From a virus, in the IMG/VR virus record IMGVR_UViG_3300035660_000001, positions 1-64,000 of that record: a stretch of DNA of 64,000 nucleotides; one strand, 5' to 3'. The translations under genes were made by a program, and so were the position numbers. Positions within the stretch are counted from its first letter, which is position 1; each line of letters starts with the position of its first letter. The notes under the pieces are model-generated. The model ran no database searches. It was not told the DNA's origin and saw nothing but the letters and a program-made list of their open reading frames with translations. Of the stretch, positions 35,201 to 58,304 are shown one piece after another.

Positions 35201-35440
35201 GTGGAGACGTTAGTCGACATCATCCAGAGTGTGATCGAAAACATCTCGTCCCGAAAAGAGAGGGTTAACTGGACGTGGCAGGGGAAGATAAACGACCTGC
35301 CCGATTGGGTCGTTGAGAAGCTCAAGGAGTCAGAACGCCCGATCCATTTGACCGGGACGATCTGGGTCTGGGACGACAACGGGACCATCCGCTTGGGGAC
35401 GACGGGTTCTTATAGCGTCAGTCCCAAGAACCTGTCGTAG
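35201..35440 (+). CDS. Small head-region protein with shared N-terminal helix
   Basis: A GTG start after AAAGGAG. The 79-residue protein opens METLVDIIQSVIENISSR, the amphipathic helix that recurs on about twenty proteins in this part of the genome. A small Trp-rich domain follows (VNWTWQGKI ... IWVWDDNGTIRLG). The next gene starts almost identically (MDSLVDILQSTIRSLSSR). Internal head protein is the suggested role, based on the shared helix and the portal/protease neighbourhood. Confidence 0.65.
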   Translation: METLVDIIQSVIENISSRKERVNWTWQGKINDLPDWVVEKLKESERPIHLTGTIWVWDDNGTIRLGTTGSYSVSPKNLS

Positions 35441-35444
35441 CATT

Positions 35445-35903
35445 ATGGACTCTTTAGTCGACATCCTTCAGAGCACGATCCGGAGCCTCTCCTCCCGGGC
35501 GGAGGTCGATTGGGACATCATGGGGTCGAAGCCGAACTTCCTCGACTTCGTTAAGAAACTAATCCGCACGGACGACGTCGAGGACGGGTTGCGGAAGGCG
35601 CTCGAGCGGGACGGATGGAAGCACACCTTTGCCTTTCTGCACCTGCAGTCGAGGAAGCCCGGAGTGCCCCGCTGGTCTGTGAAGGTCAAGTCGGACTTCC
35701 GGAGGGACGGAAAGAAGTGGACGGGCATTCGGGAAGACCGGGGAGAGATGGACGCCCTGGACCGGACGATCGCCAAGTTCTTTAAGCGTTATCCTACCCT
35801 GCGGTGGGCGGGCCTCGGGGCCCCCGGCCAGGGTTATCCCGGGTACGTCGATACGCAATTCGGGAACTTTGAAACCACAGGCGACTTGGAGGTGGACGAA
35901 TGA
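35445..35903 (+). CDS. Head-region protein with shared N-terminal helix
   Basis: A 152-residue protein whose first 18 residues match those of the preceding gene at most positions. The body is basic and mixed alpha/beta (AFLHLQSRKPGVPRWSVKV ... FKRYPTLRWAGLG). No enzyme motif. Its stop overlaps the truncated start of the deoxyribosyltransferase-like gene, where an endonuclease has inserted. Confidence 0.68.
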   Translation: MDSLVDILQSTIRSLSSRAEVDWDIMGSKPNFLDFVKKLIRTDDVEDGLRKALERDGWKHTFAFLHLQSRKPGVPRWSVKVKSDFRRDGKKWTGIREDRGEMDALDRTIAKFFKRYPTLRWAGLGAPGQGYPGYVDTQFGNFETTGDLEVDE

Positions 35904-35950
35904 TTTACGTTGAGAGTCCGAACGAGTGGGATGAATATTCTGGAAGCTGA
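35900..35950 (+). pseudogene. Truncated 5' end of deoxyribosyltransferase-like gene
   Basis: From ATG 35900 (ATGA overlap, GGAGG upstream) the first 11 codons encode MIYVESPNEWD, versus MIYIESPTEWD at the restored gene start (36637). After five more codons the frame stops. The fragment is the original gene start, left after insertion of the endonuclease at 35931. Seven of the 11 codons differ from the restored copy although nine residues are the same. Confidence 0.85.
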
Positions 35951-36650
35951 AAAGTTATATCTCCGGGATCTCTGGTCGATCAAGAAGATCGGTGACCATT
36001 TTGGCGTTGGTTATAAGGCCGCTCGGAATGCTCTATTGCGGGCGGGTGTTTCTCTTCGGAAACGAAATACATTGGGGCTTCATGAATTAAGTCGGATTAC
36101 CCGAGATAAGATACGGCAATCCTGCTTGGGAGACAAGAATCCCAATCATCGTAGTAGGCTCTCAGCTGAAAGGTGGGAACGTCTTCGTTCTATATTAAAT
36201 AGCATCCGTCCAAAGGAACGTTCTACTGAGGCAAGACAACATACAAGCCAAACTAGGATAGAGCGTGGTTTGGCTAAGGGCAACCGCAATCCCATGAGTA
36301 ATCCGGAGGCGATACGAAGGTGGGCGTTGTCAAACCGCCTTAGTCCTAATAGGGCGGAGCAAAGAATGAAGGTAATTCTCGATTCCGTAGCTCCCGGGGA
36401 CTATGCTTTCAATGTGGATGGAAGCGTCCTGATCATCGGCGGGAAGATTCCGGATTTCGTGAATATCAATGGACAAAAGAAGGTGGTCGAACTCTATGGG
36501 GATTTTTGGCATAAAGGAGAGAATCCCGATGACCGTAAATCATTGTTCCGGGGATTGGGTTATGATGCTTTAATTGTCTGGGAAAGTGAGCTCAAAAATC
36601 GGGAGTCCGTAATCCAGAAAGTAAAGGAGTTCCACTGTGATTTACATTGA
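35931..36650 (+). CDS. Free-standing homing endonuclease, EDxHD (Vsr-like) family with NUMOD3 repeats
   Basis: The ~239-residue protein has an N-terminal helix-turn-helix (LRDLWSIKKIGDHFGVGYKA), two NUMOD3-like DNA-binding repeats (GDKNPNHRSRLS; KGNRNPMSNPEA) and a C-terminal Vsr/EDxHD nuclease: NRAEQRM, KIPDFVN, VVELYGDFWHKGENPDDRK, ALIVWESEL. The E, D, H and D catalytic positions are present. ATG 35931 is used; a TTG at 35910 is possible. It is AT-richer than its surroundings and disrupts the gene restarted at 36637, as the unrelated insert at 10531 does. Confidence 0.88.
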   Translation: MNILEAEKLYLRDLWSIKKIGDHFGVGYKAARNALLRAGVSLRKRNTLGLHELSRITRDKIRQSCLGDKNPNHRSRLSAERWERLRSILNSIRPKERSTEARQHTSQTRIERGLAKGNRNPMSNPEAIRRWALSNRLSPNRAEQRMKVILDSVAPGDYAFNVDGSVLIIGGKIPDFVNINGQKKVVELYGDFWHKGENPDDRKSLFRGLGYDALIVWESELKNRESVIQKVKEFHCDLH

Positions 36651-37080
36651 ATCACCTACAGAATGGGACGGAGACCGACCAGCAGTATTTTTGGCTGGCG
36701 GCATTACGGGATGTGTTGACTGGCAGAAGGAGGTCGTCGCCGGACTGGCGGATCTCGATATCGCCGTCCTGAATCCCCGGAGAGAGAATTTCCCGATCAG
36801 CGACCCGACCGCCGCCCGTGCCCAGATCGAGTGGGAGTTCCGCCACTTGAGGAAGGCTCAGGCGATTTCGTTTTGGTGCCCTGCGGAAACCGCCTGCCCG
36901 ATCGTGCTGTATGAACTTGGGTCGTGGATCAGGACGAGCAAGAAGCTCTTCGTGGGCGTCCATCCGGACTACAAGCGGAAGCAGGACGTAGAGATCCAGA
37001 CGCTTCTGGTCCGGCCCAAGCTTGCGATCGTCTACTCCGTGGGCGATCTGATCGCCCAGATCAAGGAGCACTTCGCCTGA
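36637..37080 (+). CDS. Nucleoside 2-deoxyribosyltransferase-like protein, 5' end replaced
   Basis: A 147-residue protein with VFLAGGITGCVDWQ (nucleotide-binding turn), LNPRREN and FWCPAETACPIVLYELGSW (catalytic-type Glu in a YELG helix), the pattern of the Nuc_deoxyrib_tr2/DUF4406 group. The family exchanges bases on deoxynucleosides or cleaves N-glycosidic bonds. The GTG start has AAAGGAG upstream, inside the endonuclease gene. The first ~30 codons are AT-ending, then the style switches to GC-rich, so the gene is mosaic. Confidence 0.82.
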   Translation: MIYIESPTEWDGDRPAVFLAGGITGCVDWQKEVVAGLADLDIAVLNPRRENFPISDPTAARAQIEWEFRHLRKAQAISFWCPAETACPIVLYELGSWIRTSKKLFVGVHPDYKRKQDVEIQTLLVRPKLAIVYSVGDLIAQIKEHFA

Positions 37081-37871: not shown

Positions 37872-39518
37872 ATGGCCTTTGATTTCCTAAAAAAGTGGTG
37901 GTCGGCAGAGAAGGGTAAGCAGGTCCCGACCGCTCGGGAAAAGCTTATCAAGATGTGGGACTTCCTCTCTGCCCTTGCGATGGGCGGGTATGATCTCTCG
38001 ACCATTCTCAAGATGGAGGAGGATCTCGTAGGCCGCTACATGGACTACGAGGATATGAACGACTACCCAGACCTCTCCTCTGCTCTGGACATCTATGCCG
38101 ACGAAACCAGCCAACCGAACATAATTTCCGGCGAGACGGTCTGGGTGGAGTCTGACGACGAGAACCTCGCTGGCGAGCTGAACGACATGTTCTCCAAGAT
38201 TTACTTGGATGACCACATCTGGTCGATCGCCCGGGGCGTCTGCATGTATGGGAACGAATATCACGAACTGCTCCTCAAAGAAAACGAGGGGCTTTGCGGT
38301 TTGTCCTTCCTTGCACAGCCGACGATGCGGTGTGTGATCGACCTGCGGGGCGATGTGATCGGCTTCATCCAGAACATCCGGGGGCAGTTCTCCCCCATGA
38401 CGGAGAAGGAGTTCCGGGCCAAGGTCGAAGGCAAGCAGACGATGGGGGACGGGGAGATCGTCTTTGAGGACTGGCAAGCCGTCCACTTCAAGCTCGGGGC
38501 CCGCCAACGCTGGGACGTCTACGGACGTGGCGTTCTGGATCCTGCCCGATGGATATGGAGGCGGCTGGTGCTGATGGAGGACGCCGCTCTTATCTACCGT
38601 CTTACCCGGGCGCCCGCCCGGTTCGCATTCTACATCGATGTCGGGAAGCGGTCCCCCGCCGAGGCCGAGAACTACATTCAACGCCAGATCGCCCAGTTCA
38701 GGAAGAAGAAGTTCGTGAACCCCAATACCGGGAAGCTCGACACTCGCTATAACCCTCTTGCCTCGGACGAGGACTTCTTCGTGGCTACCCGGGACGGGAA
38801 GAAGGCCACGGAGATCGAGTCCATCGGCGGCCTCGAGTGGAACAACATAGAGGATATCGAGTACTTCAAGGATAAGCTCTATGCCGCCATCAAGATACCT
38901 AAGTCGTACCTTGGCTTCGAGGAAGATGTGTCGGCGAAGAACATCCTGGCCTCGGAGGACGTCCGGTTTGCCCGCACGATCCTGCGGATCCAGCGATCGC
39001 TCCGGGAGGGCTTCAACCACATGTGCAAGATCCACCTGGCCGCCCGGGGGATCGATCCGGACAAGACCGCCGAGTTCGATTCCTACATGTCCGTCCCGTC
39101 GCTCGTGTTCGAGAAGAACTACATGGACGTGCTCTCCGTGCGGGCGAACGTCGCCTCGCAGATGAGGGAGTATGTCTCGATGGAGTGGATTCTCAAGAAC
39201 ATATTCCACTTCAGCGACGAGGAGATCAGGGACTACGCTGTGGCCAAAGGCGGAGCCACCGGCGAGATTCCCCCGGAGGAGTGGAAGAGCAAGACTCCCC
39301 CGCAGACGGAGGTCGACTTCCAGAAGCAGTCCGAGCGCATTCTCGGGGTTCACGGGACGAACCGTCAAAACCTCATGCTCGAGACCAAGATGCGCCGGGC
39401 GTTACTCGAAAACAAGGAGCTACAGCAGACCGTCAAGGTATTGAAGCCTCTCATGCTTGAGATCAGGGAAACCGTGAGGGGTTATGGTAAATACATGGCG
39501 AAGGGCGGTCGCAGATGA
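37872..39518 (+). CDS. Portal protein (gp20-like)
   Basis: At 548 residues this is close to T4 gp20. Typical portal features are the N-terminal YEDMNDYPDLSSALDIYADE (the D-Y-P-x-hydrophobic-x-ALDIYADE motif of gp20-type portals), an acidic clip region, GMYGNEYHELLL-like central strands and the YLGFEEDVSAKNILASEDVRF helix. Twelve copies would form the packaging and connector ring, docking the large terminase. The neighbours (protease, capsid) fit the T4-type order. Confidence 0.93.
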   Translation: MAFDFLKKWWSAEKGKQVPTAREKLIKMWDFLSALAMGGYDLSTILKMEEDLVGRYMDYEDMNDYPDLSSALDIYADETSQPNIISGETVWVESDDENLAGELNDMFSKIYLDDHIWSIARGVCMYGNEYHELLLKENEGLCGLSFLAQPTMRCVIDLRGDVIGFIQNIRGQFSPMTEKEFRAKVEGKQTMGDGEIVFEDWQAVHFKLGARQRWDVYGRGVLDPARWIWRRLVLMEDAALIYRLTRAPARFAFYIDVGKRSPAEAENYIQRQIAQFRKKKFVNPNTGKLDTRYNPLASDEDFFVATRDGKKATEIESIGGLEWNNIEDIEYFKDKLYAAIKIPKSYLGFEEDVSAKNILASEDVRFARTILRIQRSLREGFNHMCKIHLAARGIDPDKTAEFDSYMSVPSLVFEKNYMDVLSVRANVASQMREYVSMEWILKNIFHFSDEEIRDYAVAKGGATGEIPPEEWKSKTPPQTEVDFQKQSERILGVHGTNRQNLMLETKMRRALLENKELQQTVKVLKPLMLEIRETVRGYGKYMAKGGRR

Positions 39519-41336: not shown

Positions 41337-42860
41337 ATGGAGAAGTTACTCTTAACCACAGTCTACGACGCCCCAGGCTTGCAGTTAGTTGAGCAGGATG
41401 CGCCTGGCGGTGGGGCTCGCAAGGTGATCATGCGAGGGGAGTTCGCTTTGGCGGACAATCCAAACAAGAACAACCGAGTGTACCCCCATGCGCTCTGGGA
41501 GCGTGAGATCTCGAGACTAAGACCGTTGATGAAAGATCGGAAGCTCTTCGGATGCCTGGACCACCCCGCCGATGGCCGGACCCGCCTGAACGAGGTCTCG
41601 CACATCATTACGGACCTCCGCTGTGACGGCGGCAAGGTCATCGGAGAGGCCGAAGTCCTGGATACCGAGCGAGGGAACAACCTCCGGAGCATCCTTAAGT
41701 CGGGTGCGAAGGTGGGGATCTCGAGCCGTGGATTCGGGTCGTTGGCCCAAGAGGGTGACACATTTAACGTGAACGACGATTTCAGGCTCCTGACATTCGA
41801 TGCAGTATCCGAGCCCGCTGATTCTACCTGGCCAGAAGAGATCATCTTTAACGAGGAGATGTTGATGGGAAATGACGAACTTCGGAAAAAGCTGGTCGAG
41901 GAGATTACGGGCAAGATGAAAGAGATGCTCCACGAGGAAGTCGCGGCAAGCGTTAAGCTTAATCAAGTCGCACCTCTTGGCGATCCGGTCGTGTCGGAAG
42001 CGGAGAAGGACAAGGCCGTTGCTTCGTTGAAGGCAGAGATCGAACGGGTCACCAAGCTCGCTAACACCTACCGCTCCGAGTACAAGAACCTGGGCTTCAA
42101 GCTCTTCCTGAATCAGCAATATGGCCGGAGTCCGAAGGCTGGGGCTCTCATGGCCGCCCTGGGTGACCTGGGGAGATTCTCGGATATCAACGAGCTGACC
42201 AAGACCGCCCAGCAGGTCGCCGAAGCGATGGGGATCGAGAAGACGGACGAGGTGGACGAGAAGGACAAGACGGATGCCGCCGAGACCAAGAAAAAGCTGG
42301 AGGTCGAGCTCACGGGCAAGAACGCCGAGTTAGAGCAGGCCAAAGGCGTGATCGCCAAGGCCCAAGAACAGCTCGAGGTCATCAAGCGGGGTGTGGGGGA
42401 GGCCGACGAGAAGGAAGCCGAACTTACGTCCGAGGTGTCCCGGCTGACGAGGGAACTGAAGGTCGCTCGTGGGGATGTGGAAATTCTCAGGAACCAGGTG
42501 GCCGTCGAGAAGGAGAGTGCCACGTCTGCGCTGGGACGTGCCAAGAAGGCGCAGTTAATGTTGGAAGCTGAGAAGCAGATCTCTCATCGGTCTGACGTAA
42601 TCAACCTTCGAAACAAGCTGGGGATGCTCGTCGAGTCTGGCGACGTCTCCACGAACGTGCAGTTGCGGGAGTGGGTCAACCGTTCCCCGGACACCCCCGG
42701 ACCCCTTCTCTCGAGGGTCCAGCAAGGCATGCGGAGAGGGGTCACGTTGCTGAACGAGGACGTCGTTCTCGAGACTCGCGGTACGGGTCGAGGGACGGCG
42801 ATCGAACAGCTTACGGGGATGTCGATGGAGAGGCTCGCCCAGTTATCGGGCGAAGATTAG
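41337..42860 (+). CDS. Prohead protease (S80/gp21-like) fused to a scaffold domain
   Basis: Residues ~25-185 match the T4 gp21 protease group: MRGEFALADNPNKNNRVYP, FGCLDHPADG (catalytic-type His), ITDLRCDGGKVIGEAEVLDT, and AKVGISSRGFGSL (catalytic-type Ser in SSRG). T4 gp21 is about 210 residues; here the chain continues to 507 with long coiled coils (residues ~300-420, KKKLEVELTGKNAELEQAKG), as in a scaffold protein. The prohead core and its protease thus seem to be one polypeptide. MCP follows immediately. Confidence 0.88.
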   Translation: MEKLLLTTVYDAPGLQLVEQDAPGGGARKVIMRGEFALADNPNKNNRVYPHALWEREISRLRPLMKDRKLFGCLDHPADGRTRLNEVSHIITDLRCDGGKVIGEAEVLDTERGNNLRSILKSGAKVGISSRGFGSLAQEGDTFNVNDDFRLLTFDAVSEPADSTWPEEIIFNEEMLMGNDELRKKLVEEITGKMKEMLHEEVAASVKLNQVAPLGDPVVSEAEKDKAVASLKAEIERVTKLANTYRSEYKNLGFKLFLNQQYGRSPKAGALMAALGDLGRFSDINELTKTAQQVAEAMGIEKTDEVDEKDKTDAAETKKKLEVELTGKNAELEQAKGVIAKAQEQLEVIKRGVGEADEKEAELTSEVSRLTRELKVARGDVEILRNQVAVEKESATSALGRAKKAQLMLEAEKQISHRSDVINLRNKLGMLVESGDVSTNVQLREWVNRSPDTPGPLLSRVQQGMRRGVTLLNEDVVLETRGTGRGTAIEQLTGMSMERLAQLSGED

Positions 42861-42916: not shown

Positions 42917-44362
42917 ATGGAACAGTTTCTGACAGCCTGGAAGACTCCCGAGGCCCAGGCCCTGATGAGCAAGTGGAACCGTCTCACGAAGTCGATCGTG
43001 GAGCCGTACCGGAAGTTCTGCGTTTCCCGGCTCCTCGAGAACGAGATGGACCACCTGATCTATCTGGCCAGCGCCGGGAGCACGACAACCGGAGATGCGG
43101 GCTACTACACCAAGCACGTGTTCCCGGTGGTTCGGAGGGTCTGGCCGTTCCTGATCTCCAACGAGATCGTTTCGGTCCAGCCTATGAACGCCCCTGTGGG
43201 TGCCGTGTCCTACTTCAAGGTCAAGTATGGGACCGAGAAGGGACAGACCACGAAGGGCACGGAGATGATCGCGAACTTCGACATGTATTACTCGTCGGAG
43301 ACCGTGAGCGGAGAGGCAGTCGGAGCGTCGACCGCAGGGTCGGGGGCCGACAAGCTTTTCACCGGATCGCTGAACTTCTCCCCCGTGAAGAAGGCGACGG
43401 ATGCCGGGGCCGCCGCTCCGATCATCACCGTCGTGACCAACGAGACGTCCCCCCGGACGATCAAGTATACCGACCCGAACGGGTCGGGTACGCTGATCGG
43501 TGACACCGCCGGGGCATCGGGGTCGATCAATTACACCAACGGCTACCTCTTCGTGACGATCCCGACCCTGGAATCGCTGAAGGTGGGCGTGGTGACCGCG
43601 ACCTACGAATACAACAGCGAGCTCAACACGGCTGTCCCGGAAGTGGACGTGGCCGTGGAGATCGCCGAGGTTCGTGCGCGGAGCCGCAAGCTCAAGGCCG
43701 TCTGGTCGACCGAGTCCGCAGAAGACCTGCGGGCGTTGCACGGCATCGATGTGGAGTCGGAGCTCGTGGCCGGGGTTTCCAGCCAGATCGGCTTGGAAGT
43801 CGACCGCGAGATCATCAACGACATCTACACCCACGTCGATGCGGTCGTGAAGTATGCCTGGGATCGCACCGTGCCGTCCGGCATCTCCGACATCGACCAC
43901 ATCCGTTCGATCCTAACCGTCCTCTCGACGGCGTCGAATGCGGTCCACAAGCGGACGCTCCGTTCGCCCGCGAACTGGATCGTGACCTCGCCCGACGTGG
44001 CGGCTCTGTTCGATCAGTTCGCGACGCACCAGCTGTTCCGGCCAGCGGTGGGTTCCGTTCCCGAGACCGGGGTGCCCGTGACCCCGCCTCGGAGACCCGG
44101 GATCTACTTCGCCGGGACTCTGCAGTCCAAGTGGGCGGTCTACGTCGACCCCTACTTCACCTCGACGAAGATCCTGATGGGCCTGAAGGGGGATTACTGG
44201 ATGGATGCGGGCTACGTTTACGCCCCGTATATCCCGATCCAGATGACCCCGACGTTCATGGACCCGTCGGACTTCGGGTTGAAGAAGGGCCTGCGTACCC
44301 GGTACGCCACGAAGCTGATCTACACCGAGTACTACGCCCTGGTGACCGTCCTCAACCTGTAA
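42917..44362 (+). CDS. Major capsid protein (gp23-like)
   Basis: The 481-residue length is close to T4 gp23. N-terminal helices (PYRKFCVSRLLENEMDHLIY) are followed by YYTKHVFPVVRRVWPFLISN and IVSVQPMNAPVGAVSYFKVKYG, the conserved VQPMxxPxGxxxxLKxxYG stretch of gp23-type capsids. Late motifs such as WIVTSPDVAALFD and GIYFAGTL also fit. AAGGAGTTAGAGC is a strong ribosome site. The capsid lattice subunit is presumably cleaved by the adjacent protease. Confidence 0.94.
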   Translation: MEQFLTAWKTPEAQALMSKWNRLTKSIVEPYRKFCVSRLLENEMDHLIYLASAGSTTTGDAGYYTKHVFPVVRRVWPFLISNEIVSVQPMNAPVGAVSYFKVKYGTEKGQTTKGTEMIANFDMYYSSETVSGEAVGASTAGSGADKLFTGSLNFSPVKKATDAGAAAPIITVVTNETSPRTIKYTDPNGSGTLIGDTAGASGSINYTNGYLFVTIPTLESLKVGVVTATYEYNSELNTAVPEVDVAVEIAEVRARSRKLKAVWSTESAEDLRALHGIDVESELVAGVSSQIGLEVDREIINDIYTHVDAVVKYAWDRTVPSGISDIDHIRSILTVLSTASNAVHKRTLRSPANWIVTSPDVAALFDQFATHQLFRPAVGSVPETGVPVTPPRRPGIYFAGTLQSKWAVYVDPYFTSTKILMGLKGDYWMDAGYVYAPYIPIQMTPTFMDPSDFGLKKGLRTRYATKLIYTEYYALVTVLNL

Positions 44363-44533: not shown

Positions 44534-44941
44534 ATGAGTAAGGTTCTGATGAATGCGATATCGGAACTCGAGGGTTTTCTGAACGCCAGACCGCCCGTGA
44601 CGTCCCAGCGGGGATCGGGATTCGATCAGGAAATGTCGGATCTCGTCGCGAAGCTCGCCACAGAGATGGCGATCAAAATAGAAGCCGAGAAGGGCGACTT
44701 CTATACGATGCTTATGGAGGCGATCGGGGAGCGGTGGGAAGGAGCCATGAAGAAGGCCGGGCTCAGAGACGATGTCGATATCCTGGCGATCACGGAGAAC
44801 ATAGTCGATTGGCAGGCCGAGCATACTCAGGGAGGCATGGAGGCCGCGCTCTATGGTGTCCTCGACCGGCTCATCTCGGCTTGCAAGGCTACCGCACAGA
44901 ATCCCGTCTCGATGGCGAAGCGGGCGGGCGTCACTTTATAA
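44534..44941 (+). CDS. Head-region protein with shared N-terminal helix
   Basis: TAGGAGGG precedes ATG 44534. The 135-residue protein opens MSKVLMNAISELEGFLNARP, a variant of the shared helix (hydrophobic at 4-5, 8, 12, 16, ending AR). The rest is helical and acidic, ending in a short basic tail (KRAGVTL). First of the uninterrupted series of small genes behind the capsid gene. Candidate internal head protein. Confidence 0.65.
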   Translation: MSKVLMNAISELEGFLNARPPVTSQRGSGFDQEMSDLVAKLATEMAIKIEAEKGDFYTMLMEAIGERWEGAMKKAGLRDDVDILAITENIVDWQAEHTQGGMEAALYGVLDRLISACKATAQNPVSMAKRAGVTL

Positions 44942-47184: not shown

Positions 47185-47411
47185 AAAACCTACTGAGTGC
47201 AGTCGAAGCCCTGCAGTCCAAGGTGGACGAAGCTGATTTTTTAAGAAAGGCGCAGGATGCCTTCGACAATACCGAAGCGGCGGCGGGCGGGCTCATTGGC
47301 CTTCAGGACCATTTCAAGAGGGACAGTAGCGTGAAGAGGGAGCTGGAGAGGGACGTCGAAGAACTCGATCGGATCGCCAAGTTCATTACCAAAATCGCGG
47401 GGGTGAATTGA
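47181..47411 (+). CDS. Small head-region protein with shared N-terminal helix
   Basis: A 76-residue all-helical protein opening MKNLLSAVEALQSKVDEADF. The whole chain could be one or two long helices (KRELERDVEELDRIAKFITK). AAGGAAGGG precedes the ATG, which overlaps the upstream stop. It ends one base before the next gene. Confidence 0.62.
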   Translation: MKNLLSAVEALQSKVDEADFLRKAQDAFDNTEAAAGGLIGLQDHFKRDSSVKRELERDVEELDRIAKFITKIAGVN

Positions 47412-48294: not shown

Positions 48295-48645
48295 GTGAAT
48301 AAGGAATTCAACGAAGCCTTCGGACGGTTGGAGCAGATTCTCTTCCCCGGAGTAGCCGCAGAGAAGAAGGGCGAGTTTCCTGGGGTGGACGTTACCGATC
48401 CGGTAGCTTCCGCTGTAGCCCCCGTCGAGACCAAGCAGGTCGTCCAGTCTGCCGGGGAGCCCTTGTTCATGTGCCAGGAGTGCGGGAAGAAGTTCTACAC
48501 GACAGCTTCTGCCGAGCGGGCGACGAATAACGGTTGCCCGAAGTGCGGGGGTGTGGATATTGACACCTACGTCAAGAGCTCGAAAATCGGGCCGATGAAC
48601 GATCTGGTGGCGTCTCTGCGGTCAATCGAAAGGAGCCTCAGATGA
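48295..48645 (+). CDS. Head-region zinc-ribbon protein
   Basis: GTG start; 116 residues. The N-terminal MNKEFNEAFGRLEQILFPG is a weaker version of the shared helix. A zinc ribbon follows: MCQECGKKFY ... GCPKCGGVD. The C-terminus again has helix-like LVASLRSIERSL, reminiscent of the same motif placed at the other end. Overlaps the next gene (ATGA). Confidence 0.6.
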   Translation: MNKEFNEAFGRLEQILFPGVAAEKKGEFPGVDVTDPVASAVAPVETKQVVQSAGEPLFMCQECGKKFYTTASAERATNNGCPKCGGVDIDTYVKSSKIGPMNDLVASLRSIERSLR

Positions 48646-48911
48646 GAACCTTACTGGAAGCTATGCAGGCCGTCGAGACGGGACTAGTCTCCGCCCGGTC
48701 AACGGACACGTTGCGGGGAGACTTCGCCGTCCGGGCCGAGAAGTGCAAGGGCATCCTCGTCCAGGTCGACAAGCTCCTCGACCAGATTGAAAAGTATGAC
48801 CCCTACGGGGACATGATCGAGAACTTCGCCGATCCCGACGCGGACAGTAAGCGCGACCGGGTAACGACGAGGTTGATCGGCCAGATCAACGGAGACCTGG
48901 GACGTAAATGA
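48642..48911 (+). CDS. Small head-region protein with shared N-terminal helix
   Basis: An 89-residue helical protein whose MRTLLEAMQAVETGLVSAR is close to the consensus of the family. The body is a charged helix pair (KCKGILVQVDKLLDQIEKY). GAAAGGAGCC upstream. The next gene starts with nearly the same residues, and its DNA is still recognisably similar over the first 30 bases, so the two starts are recent copies. Confidence 0.66.
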   Translation: MRTLLEAMQAVETGLVSARSTDTLRGDFAVRAEKCKGILVQVDKLLDQIEKYDPYGDMIENFADPDADSKRDRVTTRLIGQINGDLGRK

Positions 48912-49264
48912 GAACCCTGCTGGAAGCAACCCGGGCGGTCGAGCGGGGTCTGGTGCTCTCGGCATTTCCGAGGCCCTCGGACTCGGAGCTACAGCGGAAG
49001 TGCGAGGAATATGCGAAGATGGCCGAACAGTTTCCAGAGTTTATGGACGAGGCTTACTTCGGGGAAGCCATCTTTAAATCCGAGCTGGGCAAGGATCACG
49101 ATGTGGCGATGGAGGTAGCGGAGATCTTCTGGTGGGCTCTCAGGGAAACGCCTCTAGGGAAGGGGCTCATGAGGAGAATAAACAGCCTTTCCAAGGAGAT
49201 GGCATCCTTCTGGCGGGATCTACAATCGAACGTCGCTAGCTGGCGGTCCAAGACAGGTCAATAA
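48908..49264 (+). CDS. Head-region protein with shared N-terminal helix
   Basis: A 118-residue protein opening MRTLLEATRAVERGLVLSAF, twin of the previous gene's opening, but with an unrelated helical body (CEEYAKMAEQFPEFMDEAYF ... VAEIFWWALRE). This is the clearest case of one leader attached to two different proteins. ATGA overlap at its start. Confidence 0.66.
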   Translation: MRTLLEATRAVERGLVLSAFPRPSDSELQRKCEEYAKMAEQFPEFMDEAYFGEAIFKSELGKDHDVAMEVAEIFWWALRETPLGKGLMRRINSLSKEMASFWRDLQSNVASWRSKTGQ

Positions 49265-49272: not shown

Positions 49273-50223
49273 ATGAATACCCTTTTGGAATCTTTGGACT
49301 CCCTCCGCAAGATGCTCGTCCTCTCGAGGTTTGAGGACGACCTGGAACCCGAAGAGGAAGATGTCTTCATCCAGGACACCCGGGGTGGCGGGACGGAAGC
49401 GAACCAGGGCGGGAAGACGATCGCTACCTTGGATGACGACTGGGACAAGTTCTACAAGGACATCCTGGGCTGGATGAATAAGAGCAAGTTCTGGCCGACC
49501 GTCTGGGTGGTCAGCGATCACGGGAACACGGAGGTCGACACCGACTTCATCACCTACTCGAGGAAGCACGGGGGGATGAGGGCCGCCGGGGTCGAAGGCA
49601 TCTACTCGAAGGTCGGGCCCACCGGCGACCTCGAGAGCCCTTCCTACCGGGAGGTCGACCATGAGTTCATGCGGATCGAAACCATGAGCATCCCAGCTCT
49701 CCGGACCCGTATCACGAAGATAGGGAAGCCGGAGAAGATGTATGCCTTTATCTACGCCCTCGAGAAGCAGGTCGACATCTACGGGGCAAATAGCCCGCAG
49801 GGTCAGGACTACAAAGAGCTGGCGGACTCAGCCCGGAACTACCTGAAGATCTGGGGCTACGACACGAGGGGCCGGGTCATGTCCGAGAAGCTCACCAACG
49901 CCGGGGAGGACCCGACGGCTACTCACAAGGAAGAGCTCTACACCCTGGCCGGGTTGATGACGGGGGCCGTCATGCCAGGCGATCTCCGGCAGGATATCCT
50001 CTCTGTGATCAAGGAGAAGGTGTGGCCGGAGATCGATGAGAAGGCCCGGATGATCAACAAGAGTAACCCGAAGGATTTGGCCCGGATAGCCGGAGACGCA
50101 TTCGAAGAGACGATGGGAGGAAGAACGTCGGCTTCCGGGGAGCTCGGCAACGCCCTTCGGTCCATCCAGGATGCCGTCGATGAAGTGTGGCATGCTCTCG
50201 CAAGAGAATGGGGGAAGAAGTGA
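49273..50223 (+). CDS. Large head-region protein with shared N-terminal helix
   Basis: A 316-residue protein opening MNTLLESLDSLRKMLVLSRF, followed by an acidic linker (EDDLEPEEEDVF). The body has a beta-containing domain (FWPTVWVVSDHGNTEVDTDF) and a long helical C-terminus. HGNTEVDTDF contains H and D residues that could suggest an enzyme, but no family is recognised. AAGGAGAATC upstream. Confidence 0.65.
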   Translation: MNTLLESLDSLRKMLVLSRFEDDLEPEEEDVFIQDTRGGGTEANQGGKTIATLDDDWDKFYKDILGWMNKSKFWPTVWVVSDHGNTEVDTDFITYSRKHGGMRAAGVEGIYSKVGPTGDLESPSYREVDHEFMRIETMSIPALRTRITKIGKPEKMYAFIYALEKQVDIYGANSPQGQDYKELADSARNYLKIWGYDTRGRVMSEKLTNAGEDPTATHKEELYTLAGLMTGAVMPGDLRQDILSVIKEKVWPEIDEKARMINKSNPKDLARIAGDAFEETMGGRTSASGELGNALRSIQDAVDEVWHALAREWGKK

Positions 50224-50576
50224 TGGAGAATTTCAAAGAATCGGCTGACTGGCTGGGCGTTCTCTGCGGGGAGAGCGACGGGACGGAGATCGGGGACAAG
50301 CTGATGTCCGTCCGGGGTGGTGAGCCTGCGGCCTTTATGGACGACCAGGACCAGGAGAAGCTCGGAGAGACAATCAAGTGGGGCAAGGCCTCCGAGCAGT
50401 TCTTGGCGGAGCTGGCGAGCAACATCCGGTATGCCATAGCGTCCTACGATCCCAAGCACAAGTCGGAGATGGAGGATGTCGTGAGGCTTCTGCAGAAGGC
50501 CGCGACCGCTGGGGAGGAAATGTCGCATCAGGTCAAGAAGGCCGTGGAAATTCTCGAGAACAGGGACTGGGCTTAG
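50223..50576 (+). CDS. Head-region protein, LCGE-type N-terminus
   Basis: ATG 50223 (TGATG overlap) is preferred over a longer in-frame option in the previous gene. The 117-residue protein opens MENFKESADWLGVLCGESDG, sharing the LCGE core with three genes at 51085, 52266 and 52565. The body is helical and acidic (LAELASNIRYAIASYDPKHK). Probable member of the same set of head proteins. Confidence 0.62.
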   Translation: MENFKESADWLGVLCGESDGTEIGDKLMSVRGGEPAAFMDDQDQEKLGETIKWGKASEQFLAELASNIRYAIASYDPKHKSEMEDVVRLLQKAATAGEEMSHQVKKAVEILENRDWA

Positions 50577-50584: not shown

Positions 50585-50887
50585 ATGAGAGATCAGGTGA
50601 TCAAAGCCCTGCAGGCGCTCGAGGCCACGATGAAGAAGGAGAGCAACATCATCGAATGGGTTTCCACTACCCTGCACAATGATGAGGCGTCATCGGATTC
50701 CGAGATGGCAGACCATTTCAAGAAAGAAGGTAAGGTCTCCAACGAGACGGCCTGGGATTTTGTCAGGCTCCGACAGAAGGCACTGAAGGGCCGCGATGTC
50801 ACTTCCGAGATCGCACAGATCCTCGAGAGGGGGGGGTTGGCCGATGGGGAGCTCTCGAGAGGGGAAGCCGTTGGAGAGTGGTCTTAG
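50585..50887 (+). CDS. Head-region helical protein, weak shared N-terminus
   Basis: TAGGAGGG precedes ATG 50585. The 100-residue protein opens MRDQVIKALQALEATMKKES, helical with similar hydrophobic spacing but without the LL at 4-5. The rest is charged and helical (FVRLRQKALKGRDVTSEIAQ). A -frame alternative is ruled out by the start site. Confidence 0.6.
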   Translation: MRDQVIKALQALEATMKKESNIIEWVSTTLHNDEASSDSEMADHFKKEGKVSNETAWDFVRLRQKALKGRDVTSEIAQILERGGLADGELSRGEAVGEWS

Positions 50888-50903
50888 GAACACGAAGGTT
50901 CTC

Positions 50904-51083
50904 ATGAAGACCCTGATGGACGATCGGAGCAAGCCGAACCTGCAGTATGTGGAGGAGACCCTTTCAGACGGATCGAAGGCCTATAATATCATCGTCGGGG
51001 CTTTTGAATATGCCGCCAAAGACCGGGACGATGCGGATGCGGTCTACGAGGCGATCTACACCGCCGTGGGCGAGAAAGGATAG
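50904..51083 (+). CDS. Small head-region protein
   Basis: ATG 50904 with GAAGG upstream gives 59 residues: MKTLMDDRSKPNLQYVEETL, a short opening with only part of the shared helix, then a strand-helix (NIIVGAFEYAAKDRDDADAV). A longer form from ATG 50844 is possible because GAGAGGGGGG lies before it, but would overlap the previous gene in another frame. Confidence 0.52.
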   Translation: MKTLMDDRSKPNLQYVEETLSDGSKAYNIIVGAFEYAAKDRDDADAVYEAIYTAVGEKG

Positions 51084-51084: not shown

Positions 51085-51459
51085 ATGAGCCAAGAGAATA
51101 AAGCCGTTTTAATCCTTGCCGAGCTTTGCGGAGAACCGATCGCGTCCGCAGGGCCCCGGGTCTTGGGCTACAAAGGCGTGGATCCCGCCGTCCTTCAGAA
51201 GACTGCCCTTCAGATAGCGAACGGGGGCGTTCTGGGTGATTCCCGGAAGCTCTTCGAGTATGTGCTGAAGTTCGTCAAGGATGCGGTCGGCCATTCCGGG
51301 GATGCCAAAGCCACTGCCGAGATCAATGACGTGCTCTTCCAGTACCTGCGGGACAATTCCGACTGCAAAGAGGGCATGGGATTGATCACGAATAAATTGC
51401 AGGAGGTCGTCCGTGAGATCGCAGAGAGCGACGACCCATTCGGTTTAAAGGGGACGTGA
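51085..51459 (+). CDS. Head-region protein, ELCGE-type N-terminus
   Basis: A 124-residue protein opening MSQENKAVLILAELCGEPIA, the second variant of shared N-terminus (KAV-LL-ELCGEP). A helical body follows (LQKTALQIANGGVLGDSRKL). It ends SDDPFGLKGT, reminiscent of the FGIRG tails at 31259-33120. The stop overlaps the next GTG. Confidence 0.63.
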   Translation: MSQENKAVLILAELCGEPIASAGPRVLGYKGVDPAVLQKTALQIANGGVLGDSRKLFEYVLKFVKDAVGHSGDAKATAEINDVLFQYLRDNSDCKEGMGLITNKLQEVVREIAESDDPFGLKGT

Positions 51460-52085
51460 GAGACTTGCTCGAAGCTGTTCGAACCCTATCCAGCGGGATC
51501 TTCCTGGGGCTCTATCTCGATCCCAACCGGGAGAAGGAGTTTCAGGACCTCGAGCCGTCTACGCAGTTTATGATGATGGAGCTCTTCCGAAGGGATCGGG
51601 TCTACGGGGACTACGATCGGAACGTGAAGCCGGACTTCCGGAGCCGCTTGTCGGACTACGGGATCCAATGCGAGGACGTCCTCTGGGTGAGCCCGAAGAT
51701 GAGCTGGAAGGATGAAGAGGGAGACAGCCCGGACTACTACTTCAGGCCCGAGCGCCTCGTTCTCAAGAACGCAGTGGTCAAGGACGTCAGGCTCTTTCTC
51801 AAGGAGGCCGGGGCGAATCCGAACGATCCAGAGGTCCAGAAAGCACTGAACGATCGTCGGTCTCCGGTGAGCATCTCATTCTCGACCCGGGGCTACGCCT
51901 GTGTTCCCCCGACGATCGGCGGGGCCGACCTGACGGAATTCATCCAGGGGGTCGTAGAGGAACTGCTCGGGACCCTGCAGGACGAGTACGGGGATATGAT
52001 TGCCAACAACGACGTGGCCGATATTCTGGTGGACGGGGATACCTGGAAACAATACGCCCGGCAGGTGGGGTTGAAGGCCGCATGA
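51456..52085 (+). CDS. Head-region protein with shared N-terminal helix
   Basis: GTG start overlapping the previous stop. The 209-residue protein opens MRDLLEAVRTLSSGIFLGLY. The body is mixed alpha/beta and strongly charged (FFRR-type DRVYGDYDRNVKPDFRSRLS) with no recognised motif. Its TGA overlaps the next ATG (ATGA). Confidence 0.65.
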   Translation: MRDLLEAVRTLSSGIFLGLYLDPNREKEFQDLEPSTQFMMMELFRRDRVYGDYDRNVKPDFRSRLSDYGIQCEDVLWVSPKMSWKDEEGDSPDYYFRPERLVLKNAVVKDVRLFLKEAGANPNDPEVQKALNDRRSPVSISFSTRGYACVPPTIGGADLTEFIQGVVEELLGTLQDEYGDMIANNDVADILVDGDTWKQYARQVGLKAA

Positions 52086-52264
52086 AGGAATTATTGAACG
52101 CCATTACCGATCTCTCGCAGAATCTCAAGCTCGTGAACGTCTCCCCTCCGGGCTGGGGCGGGACCGTCCGGGCGATGAAGAAGCATAAGGACATCGACAA
52201 TCCCTTCGCCCTCGGCTGGTGGATGAAGAACCGGGGCGACAAACCGCACCACAAGGAGGACTGA
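52082..52264 (+). CDS. 60-residue head-region protein with NPFALGWWMK motif
   Basis: Opens MKELLNAITDLSQNLKLVN (shared helix). It then carries KKHKDIDNPFALGWWMKNRG, which resembles a short conserved block (H-x-x-I-x-NP-[WF]-AL-x-W-x-MK) that I recall from other phage head-region proteins. The same leader on so short a protein suggests that the C-terminal block is the functional cargo. ATGA overlap at its start. Confidence 0.65.
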   Translation: MKELLNAITDLSQNLKLVNVSPPGWGGTVRAMKKHKDIDNPFALGWWMKNRGDKPHHKED

Positions 52265-52265: not shown

Positions 52266-52550
52266 ATGAAAAAGGAAACTCGAGCCGTTCAGCTTCTGTC
52301 AGAACTTTGTGGCGAGGGTCAACCCTTGTCGAGCGTCCGGATGGGCAAGGTCGAGTTCGAAGCCTCGCCGGACAACAAGACCGTCGACATTATTTCCCGA
52401 TTTATCAAGGAACTCACCCAATACGGCTGGGTCATTGTAGATGGGGTCGTGCAGGATGCCGGAACGACGACCCTCGGTCATGATGGCACGAAGCGCGCCG
52501 TGCTGGGGATCACCATCAGCATTGTCAGGCCGAGCGATACCACGATTTAA
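52266..52550 (+). CDS. Head-region protein, ELCGE-type N-terminus
   Basis: A 94-residue protein opening MKKETRAVQLLSELCGEGQP, nearly the same as the next gene's start. A beta-rich domain follows (TVDIISRFIKELTQYGWVIV ... RAVLGITISIVRPSD), suggesting a compact two-layer fold. It is in frame with a good ACAAGGAGG region upstream. Not recognised. Confidence 0.63.
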   Translation: MKKETRAVQLLSELCGEGQPLSSVRMGKVEFEASPDNKTVDIISRFIKELTQYGWVIVDGVVQDAGTTTLGHDGTKRAVLGITISIVRPSDTTI

Positions 52551-52564: not shown

Positions 52565-53005
52565 ATGAATAGAGAAACTCGTGCCGTCCAGCTTCTGTCC
52601 TCGATGTGCGGGGAGCCGCTCCTTGACGCCCGGGGGACGTCGGTCTGGGATGTCAAGAACAAGCTCTCCACGAGGGACTTCCTGAAGGCTGGCCGTTACA
52701 TCTCGGGAGGGTTCGGATTTTGGGCCCATTCTGCTCTCGCTACGAACCCCGAGCTGGCCGATGCGTGGATCGAAGCCCTCCGGCAGAAGGGCTACTCCGA
52801 TCTCGAGATCGTTCTCTACGGGGACTTCAAGGACGGAAGGATGATCGGGGACGAGCTGGAACCCGACGACATGACCAAAGAGAAGGCTATCCAGATCATC
52901 AAGAAGCGGTCGATCAGCCCGAAGGAAGTTCGTCGGATCGCAGAGGGCGAGGGAACTTACCAGAACGCTCTCGAGGATCCCGACTTCACGAAGTTCTTCG
53001 TGTAG
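52565..53005 (+). CDS. Head-region protein, ELCGE-type N-terminus
   Basis: A 146-residue protein opening MNRETRAVQLLSSMCGEPLL, close to the preceding gene's opening but with an unrelated helical body (DFLKAGRYISGGFGFWAHSA ... ISPKEVRRIAEGEG). AAAGGAGGA upstream. This is a second example of one leader with different bodies. Function unknown. Confidence 0.64.
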   Translation: MNRETRAVQLLSSMCGEPLLDARGTSVWDVKNKLSTRDFLKAGRYISGGFGFWAHSALATNPELADAWIEALRQKGYSDLEIVLYGDFKDGRMIGDELEPDDMTKEKAIQIIKKRSISPKEVRRIAEGEGTYQNALEDPDFTKFFV

Positions 53006-53008: not shown

Positions 53009-53440
53009 ATGAGAGCCTTACTCGAATCCATCCGATCCCTTGCCGGGCTCTTCTCGGTAGGACAGGGTTCGGCTGGGAGAGTCAGGACGCCGGACGACCT
53101 CGGGGAGTCCCCGTTCTACGCCCGGCTGAAGGATACGCCACAGCGGGACAAGAAGCTGGCGACCGATCTCATGAAGATCGACGAGGACATCTGGCGGAGC
53201 AAGGGTTGGGATGACGCCTCGGGTCCCTGGGGGAACTGGGATGACTACAAAGAGAATGTCGAGGTTGCCGTCCGGAGGATCGGGATCCGACCGGGCACTC
53301 TCTCGGAGCGGGTGTGGGAGATCCTCGAGAACGAGAACTACCATTCGATCAACGGGGCCCTCGATGACCTCGCGATGTATAAGGTCAAGCACTACACTGA
53401 CGCCCAGATCAAGAAGCTGTTTCGGAGCAAATCCCAATGA
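53009..53440 (+). CDS. Head-region protein with shared N-terminal helix
   Basis: A 143-residue protein opening MRALLESIRSLAGLFSVGQ, then a glycine/serine linker (GSAGR). The body is helical and charged (WDDYKENVEVAVRRIG ... YKVKHYTDAQIKKLFRSKS), with a basic end. It starts three bases after the previous stop and has no separate strong ribosome site. Confidence 0.64.
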   Translation: MRALLESIRSLAGLFSVGQGSAGRVRTPDDLGESPFYARLKDTPQRDKKLATDLMKIDEDIWRSKGWDDASGPWGNWDDYKENVEVAVRRIGIRPGTLSERVWEILENENYHSINGALDDLAMYKVKHYTDAQIKKLFRSKSQ

Positions 53441-53733: not shown

Positions 53734-54051
53734 ATGAAGGAACTTCTCTTGGCGGTAACCTCGATTGATCAGATGGTTGGAGGGGCAAGGTTTCTCGGGT
53801 ATCCCGTGAAGGAGAAGCCGGTCCAGAGTGCCGTGGACGTTAACTCTATCTTGCGGTGGCTCGCCTCTCCCGACTCCGTGAAGATATGGATCGCCTCGGG
53901 GATCGGCTATCATCTCGAGGGCGTGGATGAGCTCCGTGGAAAGTCGAGACGGATCGGGGATCGGGTTGCAGAGAAGATTCCCCGTTCGGACATCCAGGCG
54001 ATTGCCGATGCCGTGAAGGACATACTACCCGATGTGATAGAAAGGGTGTAG
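53734..54051 (+). CDS. Head-region protein with shared N-terminal helix
   Basis: TAGGAGGAC precedes the ATG. The 105-residue protein opens MKELLLAVTSIDQMVGGARF. The body is helical (SILRWLASPDSVKIWIASG, then VADKIP-like basic end). The leader ends in AR like several others. Candidate internal head protein. Confidence 0.63.
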   Translation: MKELLLAVTSIDQMVGGARFLGYPVKEKPVQSAVDVNSILRWLASPDSVKIWIASGIGYHLEGVDELRGKSRRIGDRVAEKIPRSDIQAIADAVKDILPDVIERV

Positions 54052-54681: not shown

Positions 54682-55407
54682 GTGCCTGCGGACATGACCG
54701 AAGCCGAACTCAAAGCGGAAGTTTTCACCAACCTCGGGTTCGGGACGAAAGTCCAGGTCGAGCTCGAGGACGATCACTGGGCGGCCGCTTTGCAGAACAG
54801 CCTGCGCTGGTTTAACTCGAGACTGGGGTCGGAGGTCCTGGCTCGGGAGATCCCGGTTACAAGCTGGGAGTATGAAGAGCATGTCCTGCCGAGCGGGACG
54901 ATCGGGGTGAGCGAAGTATACGCCGGGCTGGATTACCTCGGTCAATTCTCGTTTGATATGCCCGGGTTTGTCCTCTGGCAGGTGGGGCACGACTACCGGA
55001 GGTTGGGGCATCGGTTTTCCGCTCTCGTTCTCTACCTTCAGCACTCGGAGACGCTCGGACGGATTGCCGGAGGCTACGGATGGGAGTATGAGCCTGGGAC
55101 CAGGATTCTGCGGACGTGGAAGCTCCCGCAGACGATCAGCTCTCTTTTCTACGATGCCTGGGTCGTAGCCAACAAGATCGAGGATGTTCAGGCCGTGGCG
55201 GATATCGATCTCATCGTTCGGAGGGTGACGGCACGATGTAAGCAGACGCTTGGAAGGATCAGGGGGAAGTATAAGCAGTATCCCGGACCCGGCGGTCCGG
55301 TCGAGATGGACGCCGACAAGCTGTTGGATGAAGCCGCTGAGGAGATCAAAGAGACGGATGAGTATATCCTGAGTAGGGCTTCGCAAATCCCGTTCGTGAC
55401 GGGTTAA
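54682..55407 (+). CDS. Unknown structural protein, possible neck/connector
   Basis: GTG start after TAACCTCCG; 241 residues. It opens with an acidic helix (MTEAELKAEVFTNLGFGTKV), then a Trp/Tyr-rich alpha/beta domain (NSLRWFNSRLGSEVLAREIP ... YGWEYEPGTRILRTW), and ends in charged helices. Similar layouts (helical N-terminus, central jelly-like region) occur in head-completion proteins of T4-like phages, but no direct signature is seen. Confidence 0.6.
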   Translation: MPADMTEAELKAEVFTNLGFGTKVQVELEDDHWAAALQNSLRWFNSRLGSEVLAREIPVTSWEYEEHVLPSGTIGVSEVYAGLDYLGQFSFDMPGFVLWQVGHDYRRLGHRFSALVLYLQHSETLGRIAGGYGWEYEPGTRILRTWKLPQTISSLFYDAWVVANKIEDVQAVADIDLIVRRVTARCKQTLGRIRGKYKQYPGPGGPVEMDADKLLDEAAEEIKETDEYILSRASQIPFVTG

Positions 55408-56607: not shown

Positions 56608-57198
56608 GTGGAGCCCGAAGGACTTACCCTCCACGACGTCGGGACGGACAGCAAGGGCTGGTTCGTCGTCCTGCAGGATAAGGAGGGCGGGCTTGCCAAA
56701 TACTGGTTTCCAAGCCAGCGGTATACGAAGGCGTTCCTCGACGACTTCCGGTTCGATAAGAAGAAGGGAGTCGAGACCCTCGAGAAGCGTTCGACTGGCA
56801 CCGAGACGATCGGGGATAATCTCAAGGCCGAGGATTCGTTCAGCGTCCGTTTGATAGAGCCCGACAAGGGCGATCCGTTCTTTGAAGTTCAGCGGGGCGA
56901 CAAGAAGCGATACCGCTACTACGTTCCGAAGAAGGACATGATAGAGATTGCCCGGGAGCTTTCCGACCAGACGTCCACGGAGCAGTTTAATCGTGTTCTC
57001 GGTATGTTGAACGATGTCGCCTATCTCGTGCAGGTGGAGAAGGCCACGGGGACGGGAGACTGGGAGACCGTCCGGCAGGACAAGGAGCAGACTTACGATG
57101 ACCCCGTCCACCTGAAGCCGATCGACAGCCCCTACTTTACGGTAACCGTTTCGCATCATCTCGAGCACATGCTGGGACTGCTTTCTCATGGCCGATAG
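56608..57198 (+). CDS. Unknown protein related to upstream gene
   Basis: GTG start directly after the previous TAA; 196 residues. It has the same MVRLI/SVRLI core and an acid/aromatic-rich beta domain (FFEVQRGDKKRYRYYVPKKD), then helices. It lacks the leader, so it may be made only through coupling. Overlaps the next gene by 11 bp. Not recognised. Confidence 0.58.
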   Translation: MEPEGLTLHDVGTDSKGWFVVLQDKEGGLAKYWFPSQRYTKAFLDDFRFDKKKGVETLEKRSTGTETIGDNLKAEDSFSVRLIEPDKGDPFFEVQRGDKKRYRYYVPKKDMIEIARELSDQTSTEQFNRVLGMLNDVAYLVQVEKATGTGDWETVRQDKEQTYDDPVHLKPIDSPYFTVTVSHHLEHMLGLLSHGR

Positions 57199-57670
57199 AT
57201 TCTTTGAAAATCCCCGTGACCGGAGAATGTTCGACGGCGTCGCACAGGAGGTTCCGGCCCTCAGCGGGTTCCACATCAGTTACTACTCCCTCAATCGTGC
57301 GGCCTCGATTCAGGACCCGCTGTATCAGGAGCCCACGACGGAGTCTGATTTCGTCTTTCTCGGACCTTACGACATCATCGGGAATCTCGAAGTCCCGACC
57401 TGGACGTGGGAGGAGAACGAGGTCGGAGGGATCGGGGAGATCGATGCGCTCGCCCACCTGCCCCGGAAGAGCATTGAGGACAATCACTGGCCTCTCCCGA
57501 AGCGGGGAGATATCCTGTTAGTTTGGAATACGCCACAGCCTTTATTTACGAAGTATGATATCGTGAAGGTCACGCCGACGGAGTTCTACTGGGGGACGGG
57601 TGACCACATGTTCTGGACTTGTGAACTTAAACGGCATGCCGATGCGCCAGGGGAGCAGAAAATACCATGA
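57188..57670 (+). CDS. Unknown structural protein, possible head-tail joining
   Basis: A 160-residue protein, acidic and beta-rich (SDFVFLGPYDIIGNLEVP; WPLPKRGDILLVWN), with aromatic residues typical of T4-like neck or tail-completion proteins. It has no leader helix. Placement between leader-bearing genes and the connector/tail block suggests a virion protein. No direct match is recognised. It overlaps the next gene by 4 bp (ATGA). Confidence 0.58.
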   Translation: MADRFFENPRDRRMFDGVAQEVPALSGFHISYYSLNRAASIQDPLYQEPTTESDFVFLGPYDIIGNLEVPTWTWEENEVGGIGEIDALAHLPRKSIEDNHWPLPKRGDILLVWNTPQPLFTKYDIVKVTPTEFYWGTGDHMFWTCELKRHADAPGEQKIP

Positions 57671-58002
57671 GCTTAAAAGTTCTGTTAAATGAAGTGCAGG
57701 CGTTGGAGGCGGCGATCGTCTCCGGAGCGAAGACGCCGCTCAAGCAGTGGAAGCGAGTTCCTTACCGGAGGGTGCCCGTGACGTCTGGCAAGGTAGTATC
57801 CCCGTTCAGCAGGGACGCCCGCAGGGCTACCAAGAGGGTCGTGAAGTCCGATCTGGGCCTCACCATGCGCTCGAAGTCCCGCAAGGACAAAGAGCACAGG
57901 CTTCACCGGAAGGCCGTGGAGGGCGGACACACCCTGGCCGGACAGGTGAAGGGCCTCATGGACATTTTCAACTCGGTTGATCTCAAGGTGAGGGCGACAT
58001 GA
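57667..58002 (+). CDS. Basic head-region protein with shared N-terminal helix
   Basis: The 111-residue protein opens MSLKVLLNEVQALEAAIVSG and then is strongly basic (KQWKRVPYRRVPVTSGK; DARRATKRVVKSDLG; RSKSRKDKEHRLHRK). This is the composition expected of a DNA-binding internal head protein that would be packaged with the genome, which makes it the best single support for the cargo idea. Overlaps the next ATG (ATGA). Confidence 0.65.
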   Translation: MSLKVLLNEVQALEAAIVSGAKTPLKQWKRVPYRRVPVTSGKVVSPFSRDARRATKRVVKSDLGLTMRSKSRKDKEHRLHRKAVEGGHTLAGQVKGLMDIFNSVDLKVRAT

Positions 58003-58304
58003 ACGATCTGCTTAAGTCTGTCGCATTGACAGAGGAGACCTTGAAGTCCGCCATCTCTCCCGGGGAAGCCGGGCTCAGGAGTGGGGATCCCGAGAAGCAA
58101 CAGGCCGAGATTGCAGAGAACGTCTCGAAGCTCGTCGGGGTCGTCGGGGAGATGAAGAAGCTCGCCAACGATCTCTATAACGAACAGGTGAAGGGGGATG
58201 GGGATACCAGGCGGATCGGGCGGCTCGCAAATAATTTCAAAGACGCCGTCCGGAGAGCCAGCGTTATGATCGTCGCCCTTACCGATATCACCGATCAGTG
58301 GTAG
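57999..58304 (+). CDS. Head-region protein with shared N-terminal helix
   Basis: A 101-residue protein opening MNDLLKSVALTEETLKSAIS, the last of the run. A Gly/Ser-containing linker (PGEAGLRSGDPEKQQ) is followed by helices (VSKLVGVVGEMKKLANDLYN). It overlaps the previous stop and ends ten bases before the next gene. Confidence 0.63.
   Translation: MNDLLKSVALTEETLKSAISPGEAGLRSGDPEKQQAEIAENVSKLVGVVGEMKKLANDLYNEQVKGDGDTRRIGRLANNFKDAVRRASVMIVALTDITDQW

Follow-up and report, generated by a model that had tools for sequence, protein, structure and literature searches.

A T4-type head module lies within the window, the opening 64,000 nucleotides of an IMG/VR virus record of 160,139 bases, and beside the genes of this module about 23 proteins carry a short N-terminal leader in front of otherwise unlike bodies. 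We consider it probable that these leaders are capsid-targeting propeptides in the style of the T4 internal proteins, and that in this lineage the P1 preference of the maturation protease (P1 being the residue before the cut bond) has changed from Glu to Ala or another small residue. The original prediction, made from the DNA alone, had likened the leader proteins to T4 internal proteins. This likeness held up in every sequence test run, namely in the T4-type module, the confinement of the leaders to it, the agreement of leader ends with the capsid site, the swapped leaders on one body and the clusters in relatives, but it failed at the Glu cut site: cutting appears to occur after Ala or a small residue, a feature the prediction had missed. 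Because of this failure the system is a variant outside the exact T4 type; filing it as a plain new T4 internal protein was rejected, and its new element would be the switched cut site.

Genes were called across the entire record, in stretches, giving a comparison set of 234 genes, 43 at 35.0-58.4 kb and 191 in the remaining genome. All 19 leader genes named originally are open reading frames, an independent gene caller blind to leaders chose identical starts, and the shared amphipathic leader is present on every one of them (19/19). The strict residue pattern put forward with them fits just three (45381, 47181 and 49273; genes are named here by their start in the window) and was dropped as a definition for being too tight. 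Starts of the form M[KRDN]xLL are found on 16 of the 43 genes at 35.0-58.4 kb versus 3 of the 191 elsewhere (Fisher p=8e-11), with a mean of 0.14 and a maximum of 2 in shuffled N-termini, and blind clustering of N-termini returns a single cluster of 26 window genes (null maximum 5). In the profile search that had been suggested as a check, the leave-one-out scores of 16 of the 19 leaders exceed those of all non-members among the 234 genes: these 16 score at least 7.4, the best non-member (3.8) itself lies inside the module and the best gene outside it reaches 3.0. Weak scores belong to 44534 (3.1), 46798 (1.5) and 46324 (-6.7). A scan of every open reading frame of the genome, in all frames, gave no convincing extra member outside the module; the outcome named originally as a refutation, a leader equally frequent on early, non-structural proteins, did not arise. 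Past residue 22, the 19 bodies have no mutual BLASTP matches, as had been claimed, and the earlier count of about twenty was, if anything, low, since a second leader type, marked by [LM]CGE at residues 14-17, is carried by four further genes (50223, 51085, 52266 and 52565), the sole four occurrences of this motif in the proteome. The helical character of the main leader is pronounced: its hydrophobic moment at 100 degrees, where the helical maximum falls, is 0.452 versus 0.236 for shuffled sequences (p=2.5e-9 versus other genes).

The head module contains a gp20-type portal gene (37872-39518; Portal_T4, 1.7e-70; phrog_213, 4.9e-64), the gene of a gp21-type prohead protease (41337-42860; Peptidase_S77, 1.9e-16; PDB 5jbl, 5.7e-10), which had rightly been placed among these genes, and a gp23-type major capsid protein gene (42917-44362; Gp23, 5.7e-68), all three lying between two groups of leader genes and, like all leader genes, on the plus strand. 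The proteases of T4, phiKZ, 201phi2-1 and SPN3US cleave after Glu (PMC5694885). The propeptide site of the capsid protein, placed by alignment only, was compared among 137 capsid proteins, of which 136 cover it and one is a fragment that falls short. Glu lies within two alignment columns of the site in 134 of the 136 (e.g. RLMNE/VSTD, LLLE/DATT and LNE/ETRT, the slash marking the predicted cut), and the T4 gp23 site reads FLTE/A. The only sites lacking Glu are YLASA/GSTTTGD in this phage and YLANA/GSTTTGD in its 91% identical sister, L008 (also represented by L007), so that the predicted substrate site of the protease in its own capsid protein is without Glu. Within the protease (residues ~30-170, followed by a long C-terminal part) the catalytic His and Ser are retained in DHP and GISSRG motifs. 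Position 73, which precedes the catalytic His by three residues, holds Glu in 88 of 88 alignable relatives and in T4 gp21 (GELNHP); this phage and its sister alone have Cys there. We infer that the specificity of the protease switched and that its substrates followed.

The leaders end in a similar manner. A T4-type gp21 site (hydrophobic-x-(x)-Glu) at the leader end does not describe the set, most members ending in Ala, Ser or Gly, and ends such as LVSA/R, LQSA/R, FLNA/R, VLSA/F, VGGA/R, VSGA/K and LKSA/I resemble the capsid site, with LxSA/ and FLNA/ matching LASA/ and LANA/, in part. A hydrophobic-x-[SNGT]-A motif starting at residues 10-20 is found in 7 of 19 leader proteins versus 10 of 214 others (p=9e-5), and a small residue followed by [RKFG] in 9 of 19 versus 12 of 214 (p=3e-6), both p-values being indicative because the motifs were picked after the leaders had been seen. 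The 292-residue protein 47413 (47413-48291; leave-one-out score 9.2) ends its leader with LQSA/RG and has a second copy, LNSA/RG, at residue 170 that is unchanged in the sister.

In the proposed mechanism, the small proteins would be docked onto the scaffold core during head assembly by their amphipathic helix, which spans residues 2 to about 17. The gp21-type protease would then cut the leader end behind a small residue (Ala, Ser or Gly), frequently one followed by Arg, the bond being of the type that it is predicted to cut in its own capsid protein (YLASA/G). The released bodies would remain in the head and would probably be delivered along with the DNA. Docking, cleavage position and packaging are here inferred from sequence features, and ejection into the host is suggested by the likeness to T4. 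The P1 preference of the protease would have moved from Glu to Ala or a small residue in this lineage, with the leaders following.

Leader sets are also found in relatives, cited here by label. Among phages with a capsid protein 43-48% identical, six small proteins of L193 start with MDIE[KR]xNxVLxKAI.GLQE/ and five of L202 with MS.LSE..E.GR.LL.E/, in each case shortly after the capsid gene and with bodies that are mostly unrelated within the set (two in L202 are 27% identical). Several proteins of L105 start with MNKRINRLLEGIRRELGE/A and adjoin the tail sheath gene; the L105 capsid gene lies outside the available stretch, and its tail genes are near-identical to those of L178, of the same clade. 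These leaders are similar in length and amphipathicity to the ones described above but have another sequence, and they end in Glu, as do the capsid sites of L193, L202 and L178. L084, the nearest phage by capsid identity (50% across the aligned part), lacks a leader cluster within its 18 kb. More distant T4-type phages have MK[TS]F.E[WY]L.E leaders, and Streptococcus phage GXN1 has MRL[IV][RK]L.E.

One body is found behind many of these leaders. The 88-residue protein 45744 (45744-46010; leave-one-out score 9.7) belongs to DUF5661 (PF18905, 8.7e-15; 55.3 bits versus a cut-off of 27). The L105 homologue starts with MNRKINRLLESVRRAL and has a body 51% identical to that of 45744 (E = 3e-16), a homologue in the huge phage LR756511 starts with MKTFSEWLEAD, and others start with MISFRTFIAEA, MKSFSSFITEK, MRTYFQFITES or MKSFRNYLLTE, some having no leader. 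Where a leader precedes this body in other phages, it is T4-like and ends in Glu. DUF5661 is therefore found as predicted for a body behind a detachable, lineage-specific address tag; no report of this family or of this leader type was found in the open-access literature. DUF5661 genes also accompany other shared N-termini. In L102 (7148-11721), six unrelated proteins start with MKITK[ST]QLK.MI.EAV...L, another lineage-specific leader, with a DUF5661 gene nearby. Up to seven proteins around a DUF5661 gene in L154 (3750-11185), L163 (2022-8253) and L150 (6893-10567) share a strand-like xxIxVxGxxY[KR]xA/VEA (here the slash marks no cut), apparently a leader of beta type, unlike the helical ones. 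In L202, two related leader proteins on opposite strands (16187-17128 and 17125-17874) contain HExxH motifs (HEITH and HELTH), and the former matches Sigma54_DBD (5.1e-9), a hint at host takeover; the pair may be a packaged metalloprotease or a sigma-54 binding effector.

The closest known system is that of the T4 internal proteins, which enter the core via an N-terminal targeting sequence that is removed by gp21 and in which residues 4 and 7 are important to targeting and residues 8 and 10 to processing (PMC9026906). IPIII starts with MKTYQEFIAEA and the core protein gp67 with MEGLIEAIKSND. As in IPI, IPII, IPIII and Alt, a short leader is shared by differing small proteins next to a gp21-family protease and T4-type portal and capsid proteins, and hydrophobic residues occupy positions 4 and 7/8. 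T4 has a handful of such proteins, whereas here there are about 23, most of them encoded in a single cluster downstream of the capsid gene and apparently cut after Ala, Ser or Gly instead of Glu. The phiKZ-like giants (SPN3US, phiKZ and 201phi2-1) likewise package and eject many proteins whose propeptides are removed by the prohead protease, with up to 19 protease substrates (PMC5694885, PMC10052503), but their gp245-type proteases cut A-X-E or S-X-E, after Glu, and their propeptides often exceed 100 residues and have no single helix common to many unrelated bodies. In phage P1, the N-terminal 30 residues of DarB are enough to bring a reporter into the capsid, but the Dar N-termini have no shared consensus (PMC9024508) and the phage has no separate T4-type scaffold. 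Ala at P1 does occur in a homologous fold: the herpesvirus maturation protease, assemblin, cuts Ala/Ser. The resemblance is presumably convergent.

Several points weigh against the capsid-targeting reading with its switch in specificity. Leader ends and cut positions were assigned by alignment and by eye, the end motifs were chosen after the fact, and the leaders, at 17-19 residues, are longer than the 10 of IPIII. The match between Cys73 and the Ala site is one co-occurrence and no trend, because the switch is a single event seen in two or three near-identical contigs. A clear small-residue site is missing from four of the 19 leaders (45744, 46798, 47181 and 52082), and 44951 together with the four second-type leaders ends in [CSA]GE, which was at first weighed as a refutation of the switch and still stands as an exception, so that some Glu cutting may persist. 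The leaders might thus target proteins to the head with no switch at all, the protease cutting after Glu, cutting elsewhere or sparing the leaders, and the capsid Ala reflecting a site that has moved; the five [CSA]GE ends, the leaders lacking a clear small-residue site, the unaltered catalytic residues and the fact that most SPN3US head proteins are uncleaved (PMC10052503) all speak for this. We regard it as unlikely, given an aligned capsid site without Glu in both phages versus Glu in 134 of 134 readable relatives, leader ends that look like that capsid site and a protease that has changed, next to the catalytic His, at a position invariant in the others.

A different role for the leader, either attaching proteins to a different late structure, be it scaffold, neck or tail, or serving as a functional helix of assembly factors that are not packaged, appears improbable. 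Two leader genes lie past the neck gene, 57667 (57667-58002; 111 residues, very basic, VSGA/K, score 11.3) and 57999 (57999-58304; 101 residues, LKSA/I, 9.3), and the zinc-ribbon protein 48295 has a leader-like C-terminal helix without a cut site. Against this role, the leader looks like a detachable unit, appearing in front of unrelated bodies and swapped by lineage on DUF5661, the junctions in relatives end in Glu, and T4 internal proteins behave experimentally as cargo with a removable leader (PMC9026906). That the common starts stem from a DNA or RNA element, such as a shared region for translation initiation, or from recent duplication of a single gene start is scarcely credible. The genes do lie densely packed in an operon, with every leader directly behind a start codon, and certain neighbours are alike (48642 and 48908 are identical at 12 of 16 leader residues), but shared leader residues use the same codon in 28% of 664 comparisons versus 30% expected from codon usage, the helical periodicity resides in the protein, and the bodies do not match. 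Because codon identity is at expectation, the similarity of the leaders is selected at the protein level rather than due to recent DNA copying, and an origin at the DNA or RNA level was rejected by this test.

The remaining genes of the module are given here with their leader ends and leave-one-out scores. Upstream of the portal gene lie 35201 (35201-35440; 79 residues, METLVDIIQSVIENISS/R, 16.4) and 35445 (35445-35903; 152 residues, MDSLVDILQSTIRSLSS/R, 16.7), and immediately upstream of the head genes is a gene for a nucleoside 2-deoxyribosyltransferase-like protein (36637-37080; PF15891, 7.6e-20). After the capsid gene follow 44534 (44534-44941; 135 residues, MSKVLMNAISELEGFLNA/R, 3.1, a weak score with the site motif retained), 44951 (44951-45379; 142 residues, MDYLLNVINSCLVSLSGE/P or SG/E, 7.8), 45381 (45381-45743; 120 residues, MKNLLESLRSLARSLTS/G, 25.8) and, beyond the DUF5661 gene, the weak leader-like protein 46324 (46324-46791; 155 residues, RFQA/R, -6.7), which falls in the sister cluster, the likewise weak 46798 (46798-47184; 128 residues, 1.5) and 47181 (47181-47411; 76 residues, 7.4). 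Past 47413, the 116-residue zinc-ribbon protein (48295-48645; weak, below the Pfam cut-off) ends in GPMNDLVASLRSIERSLR; this C-terminal helix, MNDLVASLRSIERSLR, is kept in the sister and is possibly an uncut C-terminal version of the targeting helix. It is followed by 48642 (48642-48911; 89 residues, LVSA/RS, 21.5), 48908 (48908-49264; 118 residues, VLSA/F, 22.5) and 49273 (49273-50223; 316 residues, VLS/R, 19.7). The second leader type is found on 50223 (50223-50576; 117 residues, MENFKESADWLGVLCGE), 51085 (51085-51459; 124 residues, MSQENKAVLILAELCGE), 52266 (52266-52550; 94 residues, MKKETRAVQLLSELCGE) and 52565 (52565-53005; 146 residues, MNRETRAVQLLSSMCGE), interspersed with 51456 (51456-52085; 209 residues, 17.2) and 52082 (52082-52264; 60 residues, 18.4). 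Next are 53009 (53009-53440; 143 residues, 12.7) and 53734 (53734-54051; 105 residues, VGGA/R, 14.2), and a neck or head-tail adaptor gene (54694-55407, plus strand; phrog_211, 3e-7) ends the head block. PHROG and Pfam searches with the bodies gave nothing solid beyond DUF5661 in 45744 and the weak zinc ribbon in 48295, tblastn against 50,697 phage records gave no match to 49273, 51456, 47413 or 52082, and AlphaFold models built from two sequences were too poor for searching (predicted local distance difference test score 54 for 49273 and 37 for 47413).

Comparison with the sister points to turnover, in keeping with accessory proteins that change rapidly as a set. Protein 45381 has no match within the sister locus, and the homologue of 48908 keeps the ...SA junction (VVSA/R) in front of a diverged body, the whole protein being only 39% identical. 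The sister copy of 52082 (L008 18867-20012) is split by an intein that contains an HNH endonuclease (Intein_splicing, 3.5e-9; HNH_3, 3.5e-6), and the window copy is uninterrupted. The overlapping genes 50585-50887 and 50844-51083 have been split, or their counterpart fused, as the sister has a single gene of 167 residues in their place (L008 17355-17858).

Several unrelated small proteins also share a C-terminal tail, [DE]xFG[VIL][RK]... (e.g. REEQFGVRGYL and KEEEFGVRGGL), a possible docking peptide. It is found in the window at 30381-31259, 32638-33120 and 51085-51459, elsewhere in the same genome at 133380-133733 and 143717-144082, and in L094 at 31-753, 2224-2673 and 2791-3000; FG[VLI][KR] occurs 10 times in the proteome, half of these at C-termini. 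The window opens with tandem tRNA-Pro genes at 9-85 (anticodon CGG) and 90-166 (TGG).

A broader proposal, which we hold slightly more probable than its negation, is that the P1 switch of the protease is tied to the change of an invariant active-site Glu to Cys, with some two dozen packaged effectors and the capsid protein switching along with it, and that the leader codes of large tailed phages are specific to the lineage and bring rapidly changing collections of unrelated proteins into the head, so that injected proteins could be discovered through leader clusters. A natural protease variant preferring Ala or small residues, with a single residue under suspicion, would open the specificity of the gp21 family to direct test. 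Since shared N-termini near head genes, with ends matching the capsid site, revealed leader codes in related phages, the approach could become a general finder of packaged effectors. If the proposal is true, about two dozen uncharacterised proteins would be delivered per infection by one phage, and the leader would flag them in raw sequence.

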